NCBI GenBank assembly: GCA_016193365.1
Contig: JACPSI010000064.1
Span: 1 to 41,042 of the forward strand
Direction: 5' to 3'
Length of the DNA stretch: 41,042 nt
From: Ignavibacteriales bacterium
GTDB lineage: Bacteria > Bacteroidota > Ignavibacteria > UBA10030
In this document: one piece after another, positions 23,362 through 25,802 of the stretch
How the letters are laid out: each line of letters opens with the position of its first letter
How positions within the stretch are numbered: the first letter of the stretch is position 1
The notes under the pieces: generated by a model
The model's input: the letters and a program-made list of their open reading frames with translations, nothing else
Databases searched by the model: none
Told to the model about the DNA's origin: nothing
Program-made: the position numbers and the translations under genes

Positions 23362-23886
23362 TCAGCGGGATTTTCTGAGTGTTTTTCGCGTGGAGCGTTT
23401 GCGATGGGCGGATGGTAATCCGTTGCGTGGATGATTTTTGGAGGCGTGCTTCGTCTTTCCTTCGGCAATCTGACTTGAACGTTGTGAAAGCGTATCCGAA
23501 AAGACTTTTGTCAAGCCGTGCGAGACTGGAAGGTCACTCTCGTCTTCAGTCTCAGGCTCCTCGACATCAAACTCGCCGGCAAACTTCACCTTTCGGAGCT
23601 TTACGCGGTCTTCACCAAAAAAACCAAGACTTTCGAGTTCAAGCTCTTCCACATCTCGGTCATTATGCGGGAGTGTAACCGTCTCGACGATGCTTTCATG
23701 GGCAGGGACAAATTCAAACCGGGTATCTGCTTCCAACATCGTGGTAAAATCTGCTATGGAAGGTACTTCGAACCTTTGCTGTTTGGAGTGTTTCACAACC
23801 TCGTGCCATACGGTTTTTACCGGCACGATGACTTCTTTGTGGGCGGCGAGGACTCTTTCGGCTTCGGAGAGACAACGCTCGTACAT
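23362..23886 (-). CDS. Unknown protein with possible winged-helix N-terminus and basic tail
   Basis: A 174-residue protein I do not recognise. ATG at 23886 has GGAG seven bases upstream. The first 60 residues (AERVLAAHKEVIVPVKTVWH, EVVKHSKQQRFEVPSIADFT, TMLEADTRFEFVP) look like an HTH of the kind found in HARE-HTH or RNA polymerase delta-type domains, by pattern only. An acidic middle (ELELESLGFFGE, EEPETEDESD) leads to a strongly basic tail ending HRKRSTRKTLRKSR. This acidic-then-basic layout suggests nucleic acid binding. It lies 48 bp after the MFS gene and 10 bp before prmC, so it is expressed with translation-related genes. Confidence 0.6.
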   Translation of the reverse strand: MYERCLSEAERVLAAHKEVIVPVKTVWHEVVKHSKQQRFEVPSIADFTTMLEADTRFEFVPAHESIVETVTLPHNDRDVEELELESLGFFGEDRVKLRKVKFAGEFDVEEPETEDESDLPVSHGLTKVFSDTLSQRSSQIAEGKTKHASKNHPRNGLPSAHRKRSTRKTLRKSR

Positions 23887-23934
23887 GCAGAAACTCCAAA
23901 CGTGGTGGTTAAAGAAGCTCGGAAGAATGTAAAA

Positions 23935-25182
23935 CTATTTCGAGGAAAGCGCAAGTTTTGACGGACGCGGATCCGACGTCGCTTGCAACACCAGGAGGCC
24001 AGCTCCCGTGAACACGACACCGGAAAGGAAGACGGCGTCATACCCAACCTGCTCGACTGCCCAACCTCCAAGAAGACTGAATGCGTACCAGGGCGCCAAC
24101 CAGGCGTTCATGAAGCCGACATACATCGGCCTCTCATTTACCGGCGCGCAATCCACTGCGAAATTGTACCTCGTCATCATTTCAAGGCTGAGATTGATCC
24201 CCACCAAAATGAAGACAGGAAAAAAATACACGAGGCTTGAACTCAAGAAAGCAACGAGGGACGCAAGCCCAACGACAGCCCCGCATATCAGCAATACGAA
24301 CCGATGGCCATAACGGTCCGCAAGCATACCGAGGGATACACCGCTGACGATCTGGGTAATGACAATGGTCAATGTGAACCACCCTACATATGATTCGCTG
24401 ACTGAAAACCTGCTCATAGCTGCACTGAGAAAGAACCCCACCGGAGTAAGCCCAATCGTCAAAAGCGCAGATGAAAAAAGAAATCTTCTGAAAGTTCGGT
24501 TGTTTTTGAGAATTGACATGATCCGGTGAAACATATCCGTCAAAGGGGATCCAAGTTCAACCTGAGATTCCTCCGATTCCACAAGTCTTTTTTGCAAAAA
24601 AAGCGAAATGAACTGGAAACAGAACACGACCACAATGACTGCCGAATAATTAAACGGGAATGCCCATGTTGCCAGGAAGAAGGTAAGGAGGGAACCATTG
24701 ACCAGCCCAAGAAGCGCGCCAAAAGAAGTGCGTAAACCCATGAGTTTTCCCCGATCCTTGTCTTTTGTCGTTTTTGCTACGAGGTCGAACCATGCGGGGG
24801 ATGCAATACCGGAGATAACCTGATTCAGCGTAAAAATAACGATGAGTAAGACCAGCGCACCGCGTGGATAATCCTGGCCAAACACAGCAATGGCAATAGC
24901 CAGAAGTAATATGAATCCTCGCTGTATGAAACCGAAAAATATAACAGTTGGTTTGCGATAAGCCTTCGTTCTTACAAAATGCGGGGACAGTACCTGGGGC
25001 AACAGGAATGCAAGATACACCATGACCGGGAACGCCCCAACGACAACGTTATTTCCGCCCAGTTTTAAGATCAGAGCGGGAAAGAAAACCGGTGCATAGA
25101 GTATCGAATGTGTGCTGAGATAGAGGCCTCCTTCGAGCAGGTGAAACCGGAAGTTCTTTTTATATGTTGTCGTTGAATCCAT
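23935..25182 (-). CDS. MFS transporter
   Basis: A 415-residue major facilitator superfamily permease with about 12 hydrophobic segments and a central charged loop (about residues 205-225). Loop motifs include TTKDKDRGKLMGLRTSFGAL and the A-like motif GMLADRYGHRFVLL. It falls in the general drug/metabolite-exporter-like group; the substrate is unknown. The ATG at 25182 is only about 12 nt beyond the T-run of an intrinsic terminator and has no SD sequence, so expression probably depends on read-through from the receiver-domain gene. Confidence 0.85.
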   Translation of the reverse strand: MDSTTTYKKNFRFHLLEGGLYLSTHSILYAPVFFPALILKLGGNNVVVGAFPVMVYLAFLLPQVLSPHFVRTKAYRKPTVIFFGFIQRGFILLLAIAIAVFGQDYPRGALVLLIVIFTLNQVISGIASPAWFDLVAKTTKDKDRGKLMGLRTSFGALLGLVNGSLLTFFLATWAFPFNYSAVIVVVFCFQFISLFLQKRLVESEESQVELGSPLTDMFHRIMSILKNNRTFRRFLFSSALLTIGLTPVGFFLSAAMSRFSVSESYVGWFTLTIVITQIVSGVSLGMLADRYGHRFVLLICGAVVGLASLVAFLSSSLVYFFPVFILVGINLSLEMMTRYNFAVDCAPVNERPMYVGFMNAWLAPWYAFSLLGGWAVEQVGYDAVFLSGVVFTGAGLLVLQATSDPRPSKLALSSK

Positions 25183-25192
25183 CGTTAAGGCA

Positions 25193-25222
25193 CAAAAAAA
25201 AGGTCACCTGAGGCGACCTTTA
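25193..25222 (-). terminator. Intrinsic terminator just before the MFS start
   Basis: Minus-strand stem AAGGTCGCC / GGTGACCTT (9 bp with one G-U pair, loop TCA) followed by eight T. It ends the receiver-domain transcript, but lies immediately upstream of the MFS start codon. Confidence 0.88.
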
Positions 25223-25228
25223 CTTAGG

Positions 25229-25280
25229 AAGAAGCAACGCTTCTTAAAGAAAAATCACAAGCAGAAGCGTCGCATCTGCT
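25229..25280 (-). promoter_or_regulatory. Tandem and alternative hairpins upstream of the terminator
   Basis: On the minus strand AGCAGATGCGACGCTTCTGCT (25280-25260, split here as AGCAGA..TCTGCT arms) and AAGAAGC-GTT-GCTTCTT (25245-25229) each form a hairpin. The segments GCGACGCTTCT and AGAAGCGTTGC can instead pair with each other over 11 bp (one G-U), excluding both. The GCGAC of the first hairpin is also complementary to GTCGC in the terminator's 5' arm. This arrangement is attenuator-like. Confidence 0.4.
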
Positions 25281-25290
25281 TTTCACAAGT

Positions 25291-25698
25291 TTATTTCTTT
25301 TTCATCTTGTCGGCGAAAAGTGAAGCCACATTTTCTATATCATAGCCCACCTTGGGCAGGTAAACTCCCCCAAATTTTTCGACCATCGCTTTTAACGTAT
25401 CGTATGCATCCGCGCTGCAGAAAAAAACCGGTGTCGACTTGTTCGGCCCTTCCTTTTTGGCAAGTTGCAACAGTGCGATTCCGGGAAGATGTCCCTTGAG
25501 GCTGGTATCCTTGAAATCATTATCGAGGATAATCAGGTTAAACGTTTCACCCTTGATTTTTTGCCATGTTTCAACACTTGTGGCGGTCTCGACAATGGCG
25601 ATTTCATCCTCCAGAATAGCCGTGGCCACTTCGAGGGCAAACCCATGGGATTTCCGTTGTCCTTCGTCGTCGTCCGCAACCAGGACTTTATAGGGCAT
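25291..25698 (-). CDS. Stand-alone response-regulator receiver domain
   Basis: A 135-residue CheY-like protein without an output domain. The acidic pocket is DDDE (residues 9-12), the phospho-acceptor Asp59 sits in LIILDNDF, the Thr/Ser switch in PVFFCSADA and the conserved Lys in YLPKVG. There is an insertion (KDTSLKGHLPG) after the phosphorylation site. No histidine kinase is nearby, so the partner is unknown. The gene is followed by hairpins and a terminator before the MFS gene. Confidence 0.88.
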   Translation of the reverse strand: MPYKVLVADDDEGQRKSHGFALEVATAILEDEIAIVETATSVETWQKIKGETFNLIILDNDFKDTSLKGHLPGIALLQLAKKEGPNKSTPVFFCSADAYDTLKAMVEKFGGVYLPKVGYDIENVASLFADKMKKK

Positions 25699-25749: not shown

Positions 25750-25757
25750 CAAACTTA
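25750..25757 (-). promoter_or_regulatory. Possible Bacteroidota-type -7 box for the receiver gene
   Basis: TAAGTTTG on the minus strand fits TAnnTTTG, with TTG-rich sequence about 20 bases upstream. It lies 52 bp before the receiver start in the 104-bp gap after the amidohydrolase. Single short match; tentative. Confidence 0.25.
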
Positions 25758-25802
25758 CAAATAATTGAATGCAAAAACAACATCGAATATTCTACGCAGC
25801 CT

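Follow-up and report, generated by a model that had tools for sequence, protein, structure and literature searches.

Organization of the locus

The window, i.e. the whole stretch of 41,042 nucleotides that was analysed, represents a single contig out of the 167 that make up a draft genome of 3.16 million bases. The genes of interest lie on the minus strand, where an amidohydrolase gene is followed by a gene for a stand-alone receiver domain of 135 aa (positions 25291–25698), a gap of 108 nt, a gene for an MFS transporter of 415 aa (23935–25182) and a gene of 174 aa (23362–23886). The receiver matches the Pfam family Response_reg with an E-value of 1.4e-5 and a score of 25.7 bits, under the gathering cut-off of 30.2, and the transporter matches MFS_1 with an E-value of 1.1e-21. 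For the 174-aa protein, searches of Pfam and NCBIfam at E 0.001 gave zero matches.

The receiver gene is present in 29 of the 32 genomes of the family (Ignavibacteriales), and the nearest named records encoding it are genomes from metagenomes, carrying the labels Ignavibacteriales, Ignavibacteriae, Bacteroidetes and others of this group. Its product is 80–97% identical across the 28 other family genomes, as against only 38–79% for the neighbouring MFS proteins. Directly behind the receiver gene, 18 of the 29 genomes carry an MFS gene; G023, one of the 18, has stops within the MFS frame. In the remaining 11, tblastn (E 0.001) finds no MFS match over roughly 1.5 kb downstream of the receiver gene, and these are referred to here as genomes without MFS. 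In four genomes of another family, with receivers that are 54–58% identical, a search at E 0.001 of the 1.4 to 2.5 kb around the receiver gene (in G073, less than 600 nt on the downstream side) yielded no MFS homologue. The MFS gene is under purifying selection, with a dN/dS of about 0.06–0.14 in all five pairs of relatives, including G028/G026 (dN 0.05, dS 0.34) and G000/G001 (dN 0.14, dS 2.3, the latter near saturation).

The receiver gene is preceded by a predicted promoter, TTGTTT-N17-TAAGTT (25752–25780, minus strand). Its general form, TTGT(T/A/G)T-N17-TAnnnT, is the best site before the receiver gene in all 29 family genomes, at 29–53 nt from the start and with a spacing of 17 throughout, though 16–18 was permitted, these figures being given without a shuffle control. 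The sequence GAAAAnTTTG is often observed ahead of the -10 hexamer of this promoter.

A second promoter-like box, TTGCGC-N17-TACATT (23926–23954, minus strand), belongs to the 174-aa gene and contains the MFS stop codon. This box reads CTTGCGCTTTCCTC...TACATT, and its first 14 bases are found within 3 mismatches in 25 of the 29 genomes, i.e. in 14 of the 18 with MFS and in all 11 without; 26 genomes passed, of which G015 was removed as a chance match inside the MFS gene, and G014, G002 and G007, which have no box, contain little or no sequence beyond the MFS gene. Of the 13 genomes in which its position could be measured, 8, window included, have the MFS stop codon within the box, and the other five have it 7–44 nt before the first base of the box. 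Conservation of the box (CTTGCGCTTTCCTCgAAATAgTTTTACATT, 23926–23955, minus strand) extends well past the two hexamers, both with and without MFS, and in 8 of the 13 measured genomes the same bases encode the MFS C-terminus KLALSSK plus the stop. A wider class of such boxes was considered and rejected, as the box has a single copy in the genome even at 3 mismatches.

An intrinsic terminator ahead of the MFS gene

Within the 108-nt gap, a hairpin at 25199–25221 (minus strand) is followed by a T8 tract at 25194–25201, which overlaps the three outer A-U pairs of the stem. The stem (AAAGGTCGCC/GGTGACCTTT) consists of 10 pairs, 7 of them up to the last G-C pair, and closes a 3-nt loop; the complete element (25221–25194) ends 11 nt before the MFS ATG. 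The initial annotation had described a terminator of 9 pairs abutting the MFS start at about 12 nt, which is close to these measurements, and the arrangement is real. The element has the features of an intrinsic terminator, with a GC-rich stem, a U tract directly after it and a position soon past a stop codon.

By itself the loose terminator scan performs no better than chance (6 found against 5.6 expected in 4 kb), and the terminator is credible because it is conserved in relatives, rather than from its scan score. The gap folds at -36.7 kcal/mol (z = -4.94), and none of 200 shuffles is equally stable, while the plus strand of the region folds only weakly better than its shuffles (z -1.66). 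In the folding calculation, 9 of the 10 terminator pairs form with a probability of 0.94–1.0 and the outermost with 0.73. Rfam gave zero matches at gathering score over the whole window. The top match among the 20 listed in a sub-threshold search of the gap (E up to 5) is L20_leader, with 23.2 bits against a cut-off of 58.7 and an E-value of 0.01; it was taken as chance.

The proximity of terminator and start codon was compared with a genome sample of 381,042 bases, comprising the window and 17 stretches of 20 kb, with ORFs and starts assigned mechanically. Only 8 of 233 tandem gene pairs have a strong terminator between them, with 19–81 nt from terminator to nearest start, and in 3 of these 8, window included, a start codon lies at most 22 nt from the terminator. 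The geometry is uncommon in this genome, though not unique.

Conservation of the terminator in related genomes

Among the 18 genomes with MFS, all but G012 and G002 have a hairpin with a T tract after the receiver gene (16 genomes); among the 11 without MFS, all but G013 and G017 have one (9 genomes). The automatic scan alone gives 16 of 18 and 6 of 11, respectively, the hairpin of G013, one of the 6, being a different one; those of G016, G025, G009 and G027 were added by eye and have in part poorer tails. The hairpin starts at +69 after the receiver stop codon in the window, and at +21 to +34 in the 24 other genomes that have it.

The 25 hairpins give 24 distinct rows, as those of G008 and G024 are identical. 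Compensatory changes support the terminator stem: both sides have changed in 7 of the 10 pairs, and 31 such cells are observed against 10.7 in shuffles, a number reached in 0 of 500. Across the 24 rows 89.5% of the cells pair, dropping to 31–53% when the strands are slid, although the rows were chosen as hairpins because they pair, which makes the score lean towards structure.

Since 9 of the 11 genomes without MFS retain the terminator, it is assigned to the 3′ end of the receiver gene itself and is not MFS-specific. From these comparisons, the hairpin before the MFS gene would most likely be the ordinary, conserved terminator of the upstream receiver gene. Between the two groups of genomes, in which species are not independent and hairpins were hand-picked, T tracts are better before MFS than without it (median T score 4.76 versus 3.41, p = 0.002), whereas stems are weaker (-10.3 versus -13.2 kcal/mol, p = 0.0002).

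The upstream hairpins are a dispersed repeat

Upstream of the terminator, the two palindromes at 25261–25279 and 25229–25245 (minus strand) can each form a hairpin or engage in an 11-bp pairing with each other, and folding bears out both arrangements of the initial annotation. The stretch that contains them matches three other places of the same genome (C121, C63 and C77) at 79–83% in BLAST, and further pairs of the core GAAGCGNCGCTTC are present at C35, C113, C165 and C127, in the last of which the second copy has 2 mismatches. Paired palindromes thus occur at 8 places in the genome, i.e. the window and 7 others; with up to one mismatch the core itself is found at 31 places, against 11 for the reversed pattern. 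No ORF of at least 80 aa overlaps 3 of the 8 paired copies, and the other 5 are touched by possibly spurious ORFs.

In the gap between the receiver and MFS genes of 28 relatives (the sister species and 27 others), taken as the 140 nt after the receiver gene where MFS is absent, no core was found with fewer than 4 mismatches, compared with 1 mismatch here. The genome of the sister species, which is 88% complete, contains no exact core, and an exact core occurs one or more times in 19 of the 32 family genomes, so that single cores are not special to the genome of the window. The sequence comparisons indicate that the upstream hairpins are a repeat which, among the genomes compared, occupies this spot in this genome only.

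Some copies have features of their own. At L111 (553–640) and L113 (460–545) a different hairpin (GATTGCTT...AAGCAATC) lies between the palindromes, which gives these copies a mosaic-like appearance. At L003 (1501–1556) a copy fills almost the entire space between two genes whose translations resemble those of lysA and asd, beside an SD-like stretch of the asd-like gene. A link of the repeat to a RAYT-type transposase gene was considered and rejected: the genome has 8 Y1_Tnp matches, 7 of them above the cut-off, and no core with up to one mismatch is present in the stretches examined around them.

The initial annotation had proposed that the upstream hairpins, or the long pairing between them, open and close the terminator and so control the MFS gene by attenuation in response to a signal. 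Alternative pairings are available, and none of the shuffles folds as well as the gap, but two near-identical palindromes necessarily pair with themselves and with each other, and the 11-bp alternative therefore needs no function. The long pairing between the palindromes is the preferred one (13.6 expected pairs), and the terminator is formed in both alternative states, at -36.7 and -33.8 kcal/mol. The noted match between GCGAC of the first hairpin and GTCGC of the terminator arm is present, but at equilibrium its pairing probability is about 0, against 0.73–1.0 for the terminator pairs, and the terminator-breaking state obtained by forcing it lies at -21.4 kcal/mol, about 15 kcal/mol worse. 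Moreover, the hairpin pair is absent from the gap in all 28 other receiver-bearing family genomes, which hence have no conserved alternative structures there, while the terminator is retained in 9 of the 11 genomes where no MFS gene follows. The initial annotation had itself named absence of the hairpins from close relatives as grounds for rejecting its proposal, and this is what the 28 genomes show. Control of the MFS gene by competing hairpins is highly improbable on this evidence. Nor is the idea of an unnamed RNA element supported: the gap most likely contains an ordinary terminator plus a repeat, and nothing points convincingly to a novel RNA switch. No described leader family of Rfam matches at gathering score.

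Expression of the MFS gene

The distance from the last G-C pair of the hairpin to the MFS start is 12–26 nt in all but one of the 16 hairpin-bearing genomes with MFS, the exception being G005 with 68 nt; start codons were picked by eye and are GTG or TTG in G012, G019, G006, G014 and G004. In the window no sigma-70-like consensus site was found between the terminator and the MFS ATG. The median anti-SD energy is -1.4 kcal/mol for the MFS gene (18 genomes), -7.8 for the next gene (measured in 24 of the 29 genomes, with the start in G009 probably misplaced) and -3.5 for the receiver gene (29); the difference between MFS and next gene has p = 4e-5. Three genomes, G028, G030 and G008, have the strongest values for MFS (-3.5 to -3.6), equal to the receiver median. 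In the genome sample, an SD-like match of at least 4 occurs in 32% of 324 ORFs at the longest start and in 82% at any of the first 8 starts; by the former measure, the absence of an SD is not rare.

Promoters before the MFS gene were sought in the 18 genomes with a matrix made from 54 sites of the two conserved boxes, which scores only sites resembling these two known promoters. Nothing near the known sites was found: the best scores are -2.3 to 9.5, against a median of 16.0 for the known sites, on which the matrix was itself trained and which include one poor site at -1.9. The highest score, 9.5, is that of a moderate promoter-like site in G002 which is matched by 4 of 100 shuffles; for the remaining 17 genomes, between 18 and 98 of 100 shuffles score as well as the best site. 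In these scans the MFS gene shows no recognisable promoter and little or no SD, in agreement with the earlier remark that the terminator leaves no room for either.

These results bear on the question of how the MFS gene is transcribed. A promoter overlapping the terminator could start transcription directly at the ATG or only a few bases from it and yield a leaderless mRNA, as the weak or absent SD (with the difference of its anti-SD energy to that of the next gene) and the short space after the terminator, which leaves no room for a longer leader, would allow. Yet no best promoter-like site stands out at a leaderless distance in any genome. The sites nearest to the MFS start (at 11 nt in G015, 18 in G007 and 19 in G005, and overlapping the start in G006, G026 and G028) are no better than 44 to 98 of 100 shuffles, and the sequence from hairpin to ATG appears, on reading, dissimilar between genera. 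A leaderless transcript is unlikely in view of this.

Alternatively, the terminator might only insulate, with the MFS gene transcribed from its own promoter within the receiver ORF and the terminator forming part of the MFS leader. The site in G002, a genome without the terminator, ends 97 nt before the MFS start and would suit such an arrangement, but the scan, which covered the last 100 nt before the receiver stop, yielded no comparable site in the 17 other genomes. In hairpin-bearing genomes, moreover, a transcript of this kind would still cross the same terminator and need read-through too, and we regard this arrangement as very unlikely. A promoter of an unrecognised type for the MFS gene is possible.

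The simplest source of MFS mRNA, and the likeliest one that we infer from the sequences, would be read-through from the receiver promoter. In G012 and G002, which have no terminator, the MFS gene starts 39 and 46 nt past the receiver stop, a short and terminator-free spacing that fits co-transcription of the two genes. As a counterpoint, the better T tracts before MFS would be unexpected if much read-through were wanted, while the weaker stems would point the opposite way. Of the original proposal that read-through from the receiver gene feeds the MFS gene, the route itself stands as the likeliest one, given the terminator, the lack of a promoter or SD and the conserved geometry, whereas its control by competing hairpins does not. 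None of the evidence examined ties receiver signalling to read-through.

Taken together, the locus probably contains a one-gene unit with its own terminator, an MFS gene that is packed behind it and transcribed by read-through, and a REP-like repeat as the upstream hairpins. The receiver unit would consist of promoter, receiver gene and closing intrinsic terminator. The MFS gene follows right behind this terminator and ends at or in the promoter-like box of the next gene; it is thus enclosed by a complete unit on one side and by the box of the following unit on the other. A fraction of the receiver transcripts would read through into the MFS gene, translation of which would begin at the start 12–26 nt past the hairpin. 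The two upstream hairpins would be a copy of a short, REP-like paired palindrome, for which conservation suggests no role. It is conceivable, though doubtful, that the terminator doubles family-wide as the 5′ leader of a promoterless and SD-less MFS gene, in which case read-through would set the dose and the hairpin with its U tract would serve as a ribosome entry signal. The locus poses a small, testable question, i.e. how a conserved transporter gene that has no recognisable promoter and little SD, and is boxed between a terminator and the promoter-like box of the next gene, is expressed.

Comparison with known systems

REP and BIME repeats are short imperfect palindromes that occur in close pairs and in several copies per genome. 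The repeat described here similarly consists of paired short imperfect palindromes in multiple copies in the genome of the window. Unlike these repeats it has only 8 paired places, which is few by REP standards, and no core in the stretches around Y1-transposase matches. The locus illustrates that an ordinary terminator and an inserted repeat can mimic an RNA switch.

None of the publications found in a literature search treats this locus, as judged mostly from titles and the openings of abstracts. Two described systems are comparable with respect to read-through. In the ABC importers of cellulolytic Clostridia, internal intrinsic terminators set the gene ratios within operons (PMC9045158). 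These genes encode parts of one importer, and transcripts were measured, whereas in the present case the U tract is good, the genes are without known joint function and the arrangement is deduced from sequence alone. In both cases, a stem-loop with a U tract separates a leading gene from a co-oriented transporter gene behind it, and expression of the downstream gene would need read-through (PMC9045158). For vtrB of Vibrio parahaemolyticus, read-through of an intrinsic terminator feeds the next gene (PMC10971746). In that system experiments have shown a regulator's feedback loop, whereas here read-through is predicted and no feedback is known; as with vtrB, the MFS gene would receive read-through transcription from the upstream unit whose terminator it follows (PMC10971746). 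Read-through past an intrinsic terminator is thus already known elsewhere (PMC9045158, PMC10971746).
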